DNA of 64,000 nt from Kosmotoga olearia TBF 19.5.1. GTDB taxonomy: Bacteria > Thermotogota > Thermotogae > Petrotogales > Kosmotogaceae. The DNA is taken from NCBI RefSeq assembly GCF_000023325.1, contig NC_012785.1:1178001-1242000 (forward strand). The letters are read 5' to 3'. Below the pieces are notes generated by a model. The model ran no database searches and had not been told where the DNA came from. It saw only the letters and a program-made list of their open reading frames with translations. Each line of letters begins with the position of its first letter. Position 1 is the stretch's first letter. Positions 19,675-60,227 of the stretch are shown here, one piece after another. The position numbers were made by a program, and so were the translations under genes.

Positions 19675-19749
19675 AACCGCAAGCGGTTGTTGCGAACTCT
19701 TTCAGAGTTGTTTCGAACCACTACGTGGTTGCTACGAACTGCTTCGCAG
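19675..19749. repeat. 21-bp phased hairpin array (copy A)
   Basis: Four hairpins start at 19675, 19695, 19716 and 19737: AACCGC-AA-GCGGTT, AACTCT-TTC-AGAGTT, AACCAC-TAC-GTGGTT and ACTGC-TTC-GCAG(C). Stems differ but pairing is kept, and spacing is 20-21 bp. No gene explains it. The wider gap 19562-20286 otherwise holds only dispersed repeats. Confidence 0.8.
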
Positions 19750-19905
19750 CGATAAAAACCGTTGTAGGTTGTGGGTTGTAGGTTGTGCGTAAGAATCGAG
19801 AGAAAACGCGGACCGTACCATCTTCTCACAAAACAGTCATTCTGGAGATGTTCCATCCAGAATCTTGTTTTCAGGACCGGATCCTGAATCAAATTCAGGA
19901 TGACG
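19740..19905. repeat. composite intergenic repeat, inverted relative to 58083-58250
   Basis: The stretch contains GTTGTAGGTTGTGGGTTGT, a GTCATTCTGGA...TCCAGAATC palindrome (19836-19864) and GATCCTGAATC...GATTCAGGATGAC-type palindrome (19880-19904). Nearly the same 165 bases occur in reverse complement at 58083-58250. From 19980 to 20160 there is further low-complexity CTCGG/CAACTAACAAC sequence without a gene. Confidence 0.8.
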
Positions 19906-27604: not shown

Positions 27605-27960
27605 TCTAAAACCGAGATCCGGTGTTCGAGATCCGACAACCGAGAGACCAAGAAGATGAGAATCGGCTCTCAAAGCTCTTTCTACACCCAAGACCCTTAA
27701 CCCCATACCCGATTTTTATCTAAACTCCAGTCTCCAACATCCAATCTCGTACTTTAATTTTTGTTCACAAGCTCTCGGATTCTCTGTGTTTTCGAACAAC
27801 CGACAACGATTTCTTACATCCGCCGAAGGCGCTTACCCCTGACATAGTCAGGCTTACCCCCAGCGCAGCTGGGCACACCCACGCGAAGCGTGCTTACTCG
27901 CCGCGTAGCGGCCCTCTCGGGTCTCGGCTCTCGGACTCTCGGATCTCGATTAAGTCGAAC
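27605..27960. repeat. intergenic repeat region with 21-bp phased hairpin array (copy B)
   Basis: The first 200 bases are low-complexity CCGAGATCCGG/CAACCGAGAG sequence. From 27821 five hairpins follow, centred at 27826, 27845, 27866, 27886 and 27906: CGCC-GAA-GGCG, CCTGAC-ATA-GTCAGG, CCCAGC-GCA-GCTGGG, CACGC-GAA-GCGTG and CCGC-GTA-GCGG. I see no gene here. Confidence 0.75.
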
Positions 27961-32884: not shown

Positions 32885-33202
32885 TTGTGCGTTGTACGTA
32901 ACGACCGAGACTCGGGAGTCGAGAACCGAGATCCGGTGAAGAAAAATTAAAGAGCGAGAATGGATGTTGGAGACTGGAGCTTAGATAAAGATCGGGTATA
33001 GGGTCTGGGGTCTAGGTTGTAGAGAAAATATTGAAAAGCAGAGATCTGAGAAAAAGATCGTTGTCGGTTGTGGGTCGTGCGTGAAGGCTAAAAAAACGAG
33101 AATCCGAGATGGCGAGAAGGCGAGAAGGCCGCTACGCGGCGGTACGAATCCCTTTCGGGATTGACACGAACTCCTGCGGAGTTGACTAGAACCACTACGT
33201 GG
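32885..33202. repeat. intergenic repeats with 21-bp phased hairpin array (copy C)
   Basis: The first 240 bases are CTCGGGAGTCGAGAACC-type and GGTTGTGGGTCGTGCG-type dispersed repeats. Four hairpins follow, centred at 33134, 33154, 33176 and 33197 (GCCGC-TAC-GCGGC, AATCCC-TTTC-GGGATT, AACTCC-TGC-GGAGTT, AACCAC-TAC-GTGG). The last one is cut by the IS256-family element at 33203 and resumes at 34535. Confidence 0.8.
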
Positions 33203-34534
33203 GGGCGTGTCACATATTTTGTGTAAACCCCAAACTCCGGAAAAGATCAGACATAGGATTTCACCCAATCAAATTCTATCATCAAAGTGGCAAGGATTTT
33301 ATCCCATTCATTTATTCTCACGGTCCATTTTCTAGTTATATTGTTAATGGCGAGATATGCCAGTTTCATGAGAGCCATGTCATTGGGAAAAACACCTCTG
33401 TTCTTTGTTACCTTCCTGAGTTGGCTGTTCAGGGATTCTATTGGATTGGTTGTGTAAATCAATTTTCTAATCTCTTTGGGATATTCGAAATAGGTCGTGA
33501 GGGATTCCCAGTTGTCTTTCCAGCTTTTAATGCTGAAAGGATACTTTTCTCCCCATTTCTCTTCAAAAGCCATAAGGGCGTTCCATGCTGCTTCTCTTGT
33601 GTCTGCTGTGTATACCGATTTCAGGTCAGCAGCGAATTTCTTTTTGTCTTTCCAGGATACAAATTTCATGGAATATCTTATCTGGTGTACTACGCATCTC
33701 TGGATTTTAGCCTGGGGATATACCGCTTCTATTGCCTCTTCCATTCCCTTTAATCCGTCTATTGAAAAGAACATCACTCCTTTGACACCTCGGTTTTTCA
33801 GCTCATTTAGCACACCAAGCCAGTATTTTGAACCTTCACTCTGAGCTATCCACATTCCTAGGACATCTTTCATTCCTTCCAGATTTATCCCAAAGGCTAT
33901 ATACAAAGCCTTATTTCTTATCTGGTTGTTCTCAGAGACTTTGAAAAAGATAGCATCCATGTAGATTATGGTATATACCTCTTCAAGGGGTCTGTTTCTC
34001 CATTCGGAAACGATGGGTATTATCTTGTCTGTTATCCTGCTTATGCTTTCAGTTGACAATTCAGAGCCGTATATGTCCTTAAGATGTGCCTGTATGTCCC
34101 TGTATGTCATTCCCCGGGCATACATAGACAATATCTGGTCCTCTATGGAAGCTATGCTTCGCTGGTGCTTTTTAACCACTATTGGTTCGAATTCACCTTT
34201 TCGATCCCTGGGAATTGAAAGCTCTATTTTGCCATATGAGGTATTCACTGTTTTTTTCGAATAACCGTTTCGGGAGTTATCCGTTTCTTTGTTCCTATAG
34301 TCATGCTTGGAATAGCCCAGTTCTTCTTCAAGTTCCGTTTCCAGCATCTCTTTAATGATGTCTCCAAATAATTCTTTTACAAGATTTTCCGCGTCTTCTG
34401 TTGTCTTTAATTTCCTCTCTCGTACCAATCTCTTCATTGCTTCTTTGTCAAAGTTTCCCACTGTTCTCCCTCCTTAGCTTTTTGTTATTTTCTCATATTT
34501 CGGAGGGAGTTTACACAAAATTGCTAACAGACCC
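33203..34534 (-). mobile_element. intact IS256-family insertion sequence with 8-bp target duplication
   Basis: The 1332-bp element is bounded by direct repeats CTACGTGG (33195-33202 and 34535-34542). Its ends are inverted repeats sharing TTTTGTGTAAAC near 33217 and GTTTACACAAAA near 34510, with outermost bases GGG/CCC. The duplicated target is the loop and 3' arm of an AACCAC-TAC-GTGGTT hairpin. The perfect duplication points to a fairly recent insertion. Confidence 0.92.
33247..34461 (-). CDS. IS256/Mutator-family transposase
   Basis: The 404-residue transposase has the Mutator-type plan: a helical N-terminus with ELEEELGYSKHDYRNKETDN, first Asp in TIIYMDAIFFKV, second Asp in MFFSIDGLKGMEEAI, the CxxH-like QRCVVHQIRYS, and Glu in TTNPIESLNSQLRKV. 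Length is typical for the family. The frame is complete, with ATG 34461 behind GGAGGGAG. Both IS ends and the target duplication are intact, so it may still move. Confidence 0.95.
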   Translation of the reverse strand: MGNFDKEAMKRLVRERKLKTTEDAENLVKELFGDIIKEMLETELEEELGYSKHDYRNKETDNSRNGYSKKTVNTSYGKIELSIPRDRKGEFEPIVVKKHQRSIASIEDQILSMYARGMTYRDIQAHLKDIYGSELSTESISRITDKIIPIVSEWRNRPLEEVYTIIYMDAIFFKVSENNQIRNKALYIAFGINLEGMKDVLGMWIAQSEGSKYWLGVLNELKNRGVKGVMFFSIDGLKGMEEAIEAVYPQAKIQRCVVHQIRYSMKFVSWKDKKKFAADLKSVYTADTREAAWNALMAFEEKWGEKYPFSIKSWKDNWESLTTYFEYPKEIRKLIYTTNPIESLNSQLRKVTKNRGVFPNDMALMKLAYLAINNITRKWTVRINEWDKILATLMIEFDWVKSYV

Positions 34535-34800
34535 CTACGTGGTTGTTCTGAACCGCTTCGCGGTTGATTTATTACAACCTCGGAAATCTGGCTTGTCATC
34601 CTGAACTTGATTCAGGATCTCGTCAATGGATATTATCCAATGGATATTAACCGCCGCAGGCGCATGTCAACTGCGAAGCAGTTCGAATCAACTCCGAAGG
34701 AGTTCGTAACACCGGCGTAGCCGGTCATGTCAATCCCAGGAGGAATTCTTGCCGCTGCTTCGCAGCGCACAGACTTGCGAGCCTCCGGGGCGCAACTCCG
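34535..34800. repeat. intergenic repeats with 21-bp phased hairpin arrays (copy D)
   Basis: Hairpin centres at 34537 (second half of the IS-split hairpin) and 34558, then GTCATCCTGAACTTGATTC palindrome at 34595-34620, then a second array centred at 34657, 34676, 34697 and 34718 (CGCC-GCA-GGCG, AACTGC-GAA-GCAGTT, AACTCC-GAA-GGAGTT, ACCGGC-GTA-GCCGGT). It runs up to the htpX stop codon. No gene seen. Confidence 0.8.
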
Positions 34801-42489: not shown

Positions 42490-42850
42490 AAACGGTCATT
42501 CTGGAGGTGTTTAATCCAGAATATTAATCCGCCACTGTCATTCTGGAAATCTTCTATCCAGAATCTGGGCTTTTTTGATGATTAGATCCTGAATCAAGTT
42601 CAGGATGACAATCTTTATTTTCTTATTTTCAAGGCGCGTTTACTGGTTTTCGTTTTTTGGGTTCTATTCCGCCGAAGGCGCATGTCAACTGCACAGCAGT
42701 TCGTAACAACCACGAAGTGGTTCGAAACAACTCCGCAGGAGTTCGCCCCACCGGCGTAGCCAGTCGCACCGAATCTCACTATTCTCCAATCTCCAACATC
42801 CGATCTCGCTTTTTAATGTACTCAGCCGCAATTCCGTTGCGCAGCGGCCG
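42490..42850. repeat. composite intergenic repeat with 21-bp phased hairpin array (copy E)
   Basis: It contains two GTCATTCTGGA...TCCAGAAT palindromes (42497, 42539), a GATCCTGAATC...CAGGATGAC palindrome (42585-42609), and five hairpins centred at 42675, 42694, 42715, 42736 and 42757 (loops GAA, ACA, GAA, GCA, GTA). About 260 bases (42590-42850) recur almost identically in reverse complement at 57840-58105. Apparent small frames in it are by-products of the repeat. Confidence 0.85.
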
Positions 42851-57676: not shown

Positions 57677-58380
57677 TACACGAGAATCCGAGAACCGAGA
57701 GTCCGAGAGAGCCAGCAAAGCTGGCCGAAGTGCTGAGCTAGTGCTCAGGAGGTTCACGACGTTGAGGCTTGTTGCAGAGACGCTGTGTCCGGCTTCGCCG
57801 GCGCTATGCTGGGCTTACGCCCAGGCTATGCGTTCCTACGGAACGGCCATGCGCAACGGAATTGCGGCTGAGTACATTAAAAAGCGAGATCGGATGTTGG
57901 AGATTGGAGAATAGTGAGATTCGGTGCGACTGGCTACGCCAGTGGGGCGAACTCCTGCGGAGTTGTTTCGAACCACTTCGTGGTTGTTACGAACTGCTGT
58001 GCAGTTGACATGCGCCTTCGGCGGAATAGAACCCAAAAAACGAAAACCAGTAAACGCGCCTTGAAAATAAGAAAATAAAGATTGTCATCCTGAACTTGAT
58101 TCAGGATCTGGTCCTGAAAACAAGATTCTGGATGGAACATCTCCAGAATGACTGTTTTGTGAGAAGATGGTACGGTCCGCGTTTTCTCTCGATTCTTACG
58201 CACAACCTACAAAACGGTTTTTATCGCTGCGAAGCAGTTTGTAGCAACTCTGAAGGAGTTCGCACCACCGGCGCAGCCGGTCGTACCCACGGCGTAGTCG
58301 TGCTTACCCCCGACGCGAAGTGTCGAACCGGAAACCCATTTCCAAAATTGCAAAAAAAGAGGAAATCCATTTCTGAAAAG
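57677..58380. repeat. composite intergenic repeat with two 21-bp phased hairpin arrays (copy F)
   Basis: First array: centres at 57936, 57957, 57978, 57999 and 58018 (stems ACTGGC, AACTCC, AACCAC, AACTGC, CGCC; loops TAC, TGC, TTC, TGT, TTC). Then GTCATCCTGAACTTGATTC (58084) and ATTCTGGATGG...CCAGAATGAC (58122-58153) palindromes. Second array: centres at 58232, 58253, 58274, 58295 and 58318. 57840-58105 is an inverted near-copy of 42590-42850, and 58083-58250 of 19740-19905. No gene is supported in the 800-base gap. Confidence 0.87.
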
Positions 58381-58409
58381 TATTGAAATACGTATGCTTA
58401 TACATATGT

Positions 58410-60227
58410 TCAGGCAGTTGCGAGGTGTTTATCAAGGAATTCCAGAATTTTTTTGTAGGCTTTTAATTGATTAGCCTTCTTCGTGAATCCGTGACCTTCA
58501 TCTTCGAATACGATGTATTCCACGGGAACACCATTTTCCTTGACCTTTTCAACGATTTCATCTGACTCTATTTTCAGGACTCTGGGATCGTTAGCTCCCT
58601 GGAGGACGAGCAGTGGTTTGACAATCTTCTCTGCATGGAAGAGAGGTGAAATGCTTCTTAAATATTCCTCTTCCTTGTATGGGTCACCAATTTTCCTGTA
58701 AAGAGCATCTTTCATAGCTCCCCACCATGGTGGAATCTCTTTCAGCGTGCGCAACCAGTTGGAAACACCGAAAATGTCGATACCGACCTTAAAAACTTCT
58801 GGTTTGAAAACGAGGGCGGCCAGAACCATATAACCGCCGTAGCTGGCACCGATTATTCCTATCTTTGTTCCATCGATAAAATCCAGTGTTTCCAGAAAGC
58901 GTTTAGCCTCGACGCAATCTGCCAGGTCGAGTTCTCCGTGCCTATGATCAGCGGCCATGAAGAAAGTTTTTCCATAACCGCTGCTTCCGCGGTTGTTTAC
59001 AGCAAATATGGCATAACCGTGATTCACAAGATATTGAAACATCGGTGAATAACTTAGAATCGTTTGCCCGCCGGGACCACCGTGAACGTAAACAAGTGCA
59101 GGGACTTTTTCACCTTTTTTAAGCCCTTTCGGTTTGTAAAAGATTCCCGGTATTTCCAATCCATCAAAGGATTTGAATCTTACAACCTCTGCCTCTACGA
59201 GATCTTCTGGATCTATTTCTGGATTGAGTGAATCCGTGAGTTTTTTGATTTCGCCTGTCTGGAAATCCAGAAGGAAAAGATTTCTCGGGGAGTTCGATGC
59301 GTCTGCTACCAACGCAAGGAACCTCTCATCCCGGGAAAAGTCAAAATCAGAGACAACGCCTTTCGGTAATTCCGGCAAGTCGATTTCAATATCTTTTTTA
59401 AGATCGTAGATCTTGAGTTCTATCCGTGCATCGTTGTTTATTGCCAGCGCTAAGAATCTGTTGTTTTTTGAAAATTTAGCGAAGACTACGTCCCATGCGA
59501 AGACTTTGAAGGGTTCACTTGTCCCGGAACTCAAATTGTACTTTTTTAGGTACTTGAATTCCCTATCCTCATCCGTAATGAAGTATAGAATCTTTGAATC
59601 CCTGGAAAAACTCACGGGGTCGTAGAATACTTCACCTTCATGGGGTGTTATATGTGTCAGCTCACCGGTCTTAAGATCTTTTATGTACATTTCAACATCG
59701 TTCATCGTAACTGTTTTAGAAAGAGCAATAAACCTTCCATTGGGAGATACTGGCCCGGGGTTAAACCCTTCGTTATTCTCAAGAATCAGATCTGCCTCGA
59801 GGCTTTTAATATCCATATAGTAAATATCGAAATATTTAGGATCCCTTTTATTTGAAAGAAAATAGAATCCCTTGCCGTCATCGCTCCAGCTGTGGAACAT
59901 AGCTTTCGCTTTTTCATCTGGAGTTAGATCCTTTTCATTTCCATCGGCATCTTTAAGATAAATATGGGAAATCTCGTTTCCGCCGTTATCTTTTTCAAAC
60001 AAAAATCCATTACCTTCCGGAAGATATCCTACGATGAAAACGCTATCCTGAGAATCTGTAAGTTTGGATGCTTTACCCGTTTCCAGATCAATTTCGTGTG
60101 CGTTGAATATTCCACTTTCATCGCTGGAAAAAAGGATCTTTCTTCCATCTGACGATAAAGCGGTACCGATGATAGTTATGTTCTTCATAAATTGATGGAT
60201 TGTGTACTTTTTTACCTGTTTTTTCAT
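58410..60227 (-). CDS. S9-family serine peptidase (acylaminoacyl-peptidase / prolyl oligopeptidase type)
   Basis: The 605-residue cytosolic enzyme has an N-terminal beta-propeller (about residues 15-330, with repeated DG/DS-type blades) and a C-terminal alpha/beta hydrolase. The nucleophile is Ser in GASYGGYMVLA, the acid is Asp in LVLQGANDPRV, and the base is His in EDEGHGFTKK; the oxyanion region is YVHGGPGGQT. It removes acylated or other residues from short peptides. No signal peptide is present. It stands alone behind a GGGGGGA ribosome site. Confidence 0.93.
   Translation of the reverse strand: MKKQVKKYTIHQFMKNITIIGTALSSDGRKILFSSDESGIFNAHEIDLETGKASKLTDSQDSVFIVGYLPEGNGFLFEKDNGGNEISHIYLKDADGNEKDLTPDEKAKAMFHSWSDDGKGFYFLSNKRDPKYFDIYYMDIKSLEADLILENNEGFNPGPVSPNGRFIALSKTVTMNDVEMYIKDLKTGELTHITPHEGEVFYDPVSFSRDSKILYFITDEDREFKYLKKYNLSSGTSEPFKVFAWDVVFAKFSKNNRFLALAINNDARIELKIYDLKKDIEIDLPELPKGVVSDFDFSRDERFLALVADASNSPRNLFLLDFQTGEIKKLTDSLNPEIDPEDLVEAEVVRFKSFDGLEIPGIFYKPKGLKKGEKVPALVYVHGGPGGQTILSYSPMFQYLVNHGYAIFAVNNRGSSGYGKTFFMAADHRHGELDLADCVEAKRFLETLDFIDGTKIGIIGASYGGYMVLAALVFKPEVFKVGIDIFGVSNWLRTLKEIPPWWGAMKDALYRKIGDPYKEEEYLRSISPLFHAEKIVKPLLVLQGANDPRVLKIESDEIVEKVKENGVPVEYIVFEDEGHGFTKKANQLKAYKKILEFLDKHLATA

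Follow-up and report, generated by a model that had tools for sequence, protein, structure and literature searches.

Arrays of small hairpins located between the genes of Kosmotoga olearia TBF 19.5.1 (2,302,126 bp, single contig) probably represent a lineage-specific family of extragenic DNA repeats, in which the hairpin adopted by single-stranded DNA is the conserved trait and blocks are copied whole. The family is real, well defined, and apparently undescribed, and our literature search found no paper that names it. We analysed a 64,000-nt stretch of this genome (hereafter called the window), and wider counts are based on a 566-kb sample taken as stretches and on whole-genome model searches.

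An earlier note on the window had reported seven arrays, and each of them was located to within a few bases. One had been described as an array at 33126-33202 that continues at 34535-34565. It is present, but as one array whose two parts are separated by an insertion sequence of 1332 bp with its 8-bp target duplication. The following features were identified in the window.

19675..19751, minus strand: array with CGCTGC/GCAGTT, AACCAC, and AACTCT hairpins, then a CCGC hairpin
27819..27913, plus strand: second-series array with CCGCC, CCTGAC, CCCAGC, CCACGC, and CGCCGC
33126..33202, minus strand: left part of the array split by an insertion sequence
33203..34534, minus strand: insertion sequence inside a hairpin, with a 404-aa ORF (33247-34461) and 8-bp direct repeats CTACGTGG flanking both sides
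34535..34565, minus strand: right part of the array split by the insertion sequence
34650..34725, plus strand: array of four hairpins, CCGCC, AACTGC, AACTCC, and ACCGGC
42668..42764, plus strand: array that is an inverted, near-identical copy of the array at 57929..58025
57788..57862, minus strand: third-series hairpins CCGGC, CTGGGC, and CGTTCC, spaced ~22-25 bp and absent from the earlier list
57929..58025, minus strand: focus array of five hairpins, TCCGCC(gaa) - AACTGC(aca) - AACCAC(gaa) - AACTCC(gca) - ACTGGC(gta)
58227..58325, plus strand: second array near the focus array, with CGCTGC, AACTCT-type, ACCGGC, CACGGC, and CGACGC hairpins, partly decayed

The focus array has spacings of 19, 21, 21, and 21, with GNA loops on the minus strand. 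A 322-bp block around the array at 42668..42764 is 94.7% identical to the block of the focus array, and one stem that reads ACCGGC/GCCAGT (one mismatch) in the former is a perfect ACTGGC/GCCAGT in the latter. The insertion sequence at 33203..34534 has further copies elsewhere at 95-100% identity, and the array at 27819..27913 lies ~215 bp upstream of a 16S rRNA gene (28129).

The repeating unit is a 15-nt hairpin with a 6-bp stem and a 3-nt loop, and linkers of ~6 nt join the units. Read on one strand, its pattern is 5'-(C)-6-nt arm-(G/A)NA-6-nt arm-(CG), and GNA is found on the same strand throughout the units of one array. Loops in a first survey were GAA (112), GCA (70), GTA (33), AAA (20), and ACA (14). 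The dominance of GNA also holds without array bias, because an array-blind census of all perfect palindromes with 6-bp arms and a 3-nt loop in the sample returned the same loops (GAA/TTC 193, GCA/TGC 88, GTA/TAC 60). Flanking the stem, only the C before and the CG after are conserved, and the remaining linker columns are variable.

Array number and phasing are far beyond chance. A strict scan (perfect arms of at least 5, loop of 3, spacing of 19-23, at least three consecutive hairpins) found four phased runs of at least three hairpins in the window, whereas 50 first-order Markov resamples averaged 0.0 such runs and 0.3 runs of at least two. The shuffled control on which the earlier note had staked the arrays therefore went in their favor. 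The strict scan also gave 20 runs in twenty 20-kb stretches spread evenly over the genome. A genome-wide scan, likewise proposed in the note, indicated that arrays are abundant (~76-109 across the genome): a covariance model derived from 40 three-hairpin stretches has 76 matches in K. olearia, and the 19 arrays of at least three units in the 20 evenly spaced 20-kb stretches extrapolate to ~109. The claim that centers are mostly exactly 21 bp apart was borne out in the 566-kb sample, where this spacing accounts for 248 of 336 cases (74%), with 45 at 20 bp and 21 at 19 bp.

Stems occur in three series. The first is [TCCGCC]-AACTGC-AACCAC-AACTCC-ACCGGC or AACTCT-AATCCC-CGCCGC, the second is CACTCC-CCTGAC-CCCAGC-CCACGC-AGCCGC, and the third includes CGGCTC/CGTGAC/CTGGGC/CGCTGC. 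Approximately 16 hairpin types recur, and 467 of 470 ordered pairs (156 arrays) follow one order, as do 30 of 31 pairs from two relatives. Because the order is fixed, we regard arrays as descended from ancestral blocks by copying, with units lost or gained, and not as independent instances of symmetry. Thus, neighboring stems do differ, as had been observed, but the same ~16 stems appear in a constant order across arrays, and so their choice is not arbitrary. An earlier reader could take the pattern for ‘symmetry without sequence’ from seven arrays alone. The identical repeats and unique spacers of a CRISPR are not present, since adjacent units are not identical and their order is repeated over 156 arrays.

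The folding of the DNA is conserved more than its letters. In an alignment of arrays, 98.1% of stem cells are paired, a figure obtained with units whose detection needed at least five of six pairs and thus favored intact stems, whereas controls with a slid register are 18-45% paired. Stem cells are changed on both sides in 195 instances versus one side in 5, and all 18 stem pairs show two-sided changes. When similar arrays are compared, stem bases change at a rate of 8.5% and the three variable linker positions at 32-50%, such that stems change 4-6 times more slowly than linkers. Within the loop, the middle position changes at 39% and the third position (A) at 2.6%. Two-sided complementary changes number 923 versus ~40 expected under independence, where the expectation is arithmetic from the observed per-position rates and the array pairs compared are not independent. 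The earlier note had suggested selection or copying that acts on symmetry rather than on sequence. The paired changes uphold the self-complementarity in this proposal, but its second half fails because stem types are heritable and ordered and the loop is constrained.

One source (PMC6895277, citing Yoshizawa 1997) describes GNA loops as forming ‘extraordinarily stable’ DNA minihairpins such as CGCGAAGCG. This same string occurs within the CCACGC(gaa)GCGTG hairpin of arrays. The C(GNA)G loops of arrays would thus be tied to the class of stable minihairpins, which may be relevant to a thermophilic host. Loop energies from the ViennaRNA DNA and RNA tables are uninformative in this respect, since these tables score nearly all triloops alike.

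One biological machine, a group II intron, reads array hairpins as hairpins. The intron has 12 matches in the K. olearia genome, and its 5' end is kept in 11. In all 11 testable introns the insertion lies 6-7 nt downstream of an array hairpin (imperfect in one case), and the intron sense corresponds to the TNC strand in 10 of 11 copies (p = 0.012 for orientation).

Intron copies (L162-L172): K. olearia 1392953, 1414378, 219302, 89940, 548483, 159378
Further intron copies (L162-L172): K. olearia 1320273, 1109547, 1886210, 1405366, 1526444

The intron RNA matches Rfam group-II-D1D4-3, and its 423-aa protein has reverse transcriptase and maturase domains, whereas an endonuclease domain was not found. 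Insertion after terminator or attC-site hairpins is a known habit of class C introns (PMC4424553, PMC7923331), and the stem-loop just upstream of the insertion that characterizes group IIC targets is present for 11 of 11 introns. Our conclusion on hairpin reading is based on this known habit and on the constant distance of all 11 insertions. Arrays share with terminator hairpins and attC bottom strands a hairpin followed by a short IBS1, an intron at a fixed distance, and an intron protein apparently without an endonuclease; the array linker probably serves as this IBS1. Unlike those targets, however, arrays are multi-unit extragenic repeats that are neither terminators nor attC sites, and they are abundant in genomes that lack the intron. 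Intron targeting proves that the hairpins are read, but not where else they form, and terminator hairpins form in RNA too.

We also considered the intron as the cause of the arrays and rejected this idea, since genomes G002 and G006 bear arrays without an intron match. Related introns of one Mesotoga genome and of other relatives are inserted after other hairpins; among five such junctions, one looks like a different palindrome and another like a terminator. At array linkers or stems there are also three copies of an IS element that has two ORFs (125 and 300 aa), as well as a second IS.

By sequence searches, the family is apparently confined to Kosmotogaceae within the genomes examined. Among 103 genomes of the phylum, model matches number 76 in K. 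olearia, 33 in G006, 18 in K. pacifica, 8 in G008, and 0-2 in Mesotoga. Beyond these, matches are limited to a few contigs of metagenome-assembled genomes (MAGs) from other families, and all other genomes have none. A generic two-unit pattern, when searched against 84,980 species genomes (from which records near K. olearia may be left out), hit only three Thermotogae/Kosmotogales MAG contigs, and no array match was obtained in the viral contigs, plasmids, and phages searched. A decayed array with similar flanks is present in at least three Mesotoga genomes. Array positions differ between genera. Near-identical Kosmotoga-like contigs occur in MAGs of different families (G004:C111 and G032:C46; also L113, L114, and L115), which suggests misbinning, and we did not count them as spread of the family.

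Based on calls from a codon-usage gene finder, 24 of 63 arrays are in convergent gaps, 32 in tandem gaps, and 3 in divergent gaps, and 4 overlap predicted genes. The excess in convergent gaps yields p = 2.6e-7 over all loci but is not significant when only the evenly spaced sample is considered (p = 0.12). Likewise, a bias with respect to the replication strand is not significant (43 leading, 27 lagging, p = 0.07).

Some arrays are carried in a genomic island of K. olearia (1380001-1400000; L021 1-20000), where they lie between PIN, AbiE, PemK, HTH-peptidase M78, and ATPase/DUF234 genes. A counterpart island in G006, another Kosmotogaceae genome (L174 10200-19520), has blocks that are 87-98% identical and rearranged between the two genera. 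The blocks show a recent exchange of an array-bearing island of toxin-antitoxin and ATPase genes. Because of these shared blocks, block transfer with recombination is available as a route for arrays. One shared block of 1589 bp begins beside one array and contains another, but the other shared blocks do not end at arrays, and cassette boundaries at arrays are thus not general.

Several other explanations for these patterns deserve consideration. An RNA-level element (a 3'-end stabilizer, a terminator, or a non-coding RNA) would show stem covariation too, the low number of arrays in divergent gaps is as seen for 3'-end elements, and insertion downstream of terminators is known for group IIC introns. 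However, arrays have no strand preference relative to tandem genes (13 same, 19 opposite), T-tracts after the hairpins are absent, and an Rfam scan of the window at the gathering threshold returned rRNA and tRNA only, with no other RNA family. Furthermore, no preference for G·T over A·C mismatches was seen (19 versus 28 among 210 distinct units; 188 versus 140 in pairwise counts, where pairs are not independent), and so pairing does not seem to be maintained by a one-strand RNA that tolerates G·U. An action in RNA is unlikely in our estimation. Repeats of seven codons, whether decayed or present, would also have a period of 21, and ORFs of ~90-150 aa traverse many arrays. The earlier note had named decayed coding repeats as a possible undoing of its arrays, but 88 of 336 spacings (a quarter) are not 21 and break the frame, only 4 of the 63 arrays overlap a predicted gene, and stems undergo paired changes without a coding reason; the probability of this explanation is negligible. 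Together, the standing of G·T as no better than A·C, the lack of a strand preference relative to genes, and the exclusion of coding by phase breaks point to a hairpin at the DNA level. The note had further proposed a protein that reads one face of the duplex, and 21 bp does equal two helical turns, with spacings of 19-23 tolerated. This idea is not favored: the ~16 different stem sequences share only an asymmetric CGNAG core, linkers vary freely, and all cores in an array point the same way, a consistency not required of a duplex site with dyad symmetry. Because the conserved loop (GNA/TNC) lacks symmetry about the dyad, a single-stranded hairpin loop would fit better than a symmetric duplex site, and duplex sites for a nucleoid or regulatory protein strike us as extremely improbable.

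Two further possibilities involve known mobile systems. Arrays could be REP/BIME-type elements moved by a host RAYT (REP-associated tyrosine transposase, HUH/Y1), a protein that recognizes single-stranded hairpins. There are exactly two Y1 proteins in the genome, both RAYT-like (67-68 bits; cut-off 80). One RAYT gene is directly followed by a five-unit array, a degenerate array-like stretch comes after both genes, and two decayed Mesotoga arrays adjoin RAYT C-terminal fragments. Yet the 566-kb sample has only 4 copies of the RAYT-end repeat GGGACAGAC, of which 3 are at RAYT genes, array matches number 0-2 in Mesotoga genomes where RAYT has 4-8, and intact RAYT flanks in Mesotoga and K. pacifica lack arrays. 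As in the REP/BIME elements of enterobacteria and pseudomonads, arrays are multicopy, small intergenic palindromes that form tandem mosaics and are copied between sites. A GTAG-type tetranucleotide is a feature 5' of REP palindromes (PMC8266576), whereas none is conserved 5' of array stems, and arrays differ also in their 21-bp phase, in a fixed succession of as many as six different stems, and in having no clear tie to the RAYT present in the genome. The best reading is that arrays are BIME-like in behavior but are not a REP, and movement by RAYT is quite unlikely. Alternatively, arrays might be integron-like, a cluster of attC-like sites without integrase between toxin-antitoxin cassettes. 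The gene content and rearranged blocks of the 1.380-1.400 Mb island, the 1589-bp block that starts beside an array, and the insertion of group IIC-attC introns into attC hairpins are in keeping with this idea, as is the resemblance to CALIN (integrase-less attC clusters), where hairpin DNA also lies between toxin-antitoxin and defense cassettes. An integron integrase in the genome is not needed for CALIN. In this genome it is absent (the best match, at 71 bits versus a cut-off of 265, is an Xer-like protein of all relatives), and the perfect 6-bp hairpins with 3-nt loops have no attC R/L boxes and the remaining block ends are not at arrays. An integron-like origin is very unlikely.

The two RAYT-like transposases (L065, L066) are 95% identical and carry AAAATAGGGACAGAC repeats on their 5' side, and this pair with its repeats is probably the REPtron of another repeat family.

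Our preferred reading, a family of DNA repeats that conserves a single-stranded hairpin, also invites comparison with the repetitive hairpin-forming elements and short palindromic repeats of organelles (sponge mtDNA RHE, Volvox, and the double-hairpin elements of Allomyces), which are likewise intergenic with conserved stems and are thought to be selfish. Arrays differ in being bacterial, ordered, and constrained in the loop (C-GNA-G), whereas sponge substitutions fall in the loop. Each copy consists of three to six 15-nt mini-hairpins in fixed order, with ~6-nt linkers and a 21-bp period. According to our reading, such blocks would be copied whole by duplication or recombination and by horizontal transfer with neighboring genes. 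The hairpin would form when DNA is single-stranded, perhaps at the replication fork, during uptake, or by extrusion, and the C(GNA)G loop would lend it unusual thermal stability. Imperfect stems would be either purged or repaired off the opposite arm, and elements that recognize folded DNA would find a convenient target in a hairpin with its 6-nt linker. A benefit to the host is not needed to account for the pattern. We found neither an insertion with defined ends nor a pair of empty and filled array sites, and the ends of duplicated blocks vary; mobility of the array itself is therefore inferred from its dispersal. Decidedly unlikely, though worth stating, is a bolder version in which stems are kept perfect by hairpin-templated correction (arm templates arm) and not by functional selection, and in which arrays act as single-strand docking sites for the integrase-free loading and shuffling of introns, insertion sequences, and toxin-antitoxin genes across Kosmotogaceae.

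If our preferred reading is correct, these arrays are a natural bacterial repeat, found in a thermophile, in which the folding of DNA and not its coding is the conserved trait, with a loop that is by chemistry one of the most stable in DNA. The arrays also link extragenic hairpin repeats to how group II introns choose their targets. One culturable organism holds ~100 arrays and 11 introns, which opens the spread of palindromic repeats and the formation of chromosomal hairpins at high temperature to testing.

A mosaic of other short repeats surrounds the arrays at 57700-58420 of the window and in most array gaps. Its members are tandem CTCGG (~9 bp), ACAACC (7 bp), and CCCTAGA (7 bp), the palindrome TCATCCTGAACTTGATTCAGGAT, and GCAAGCCTC.
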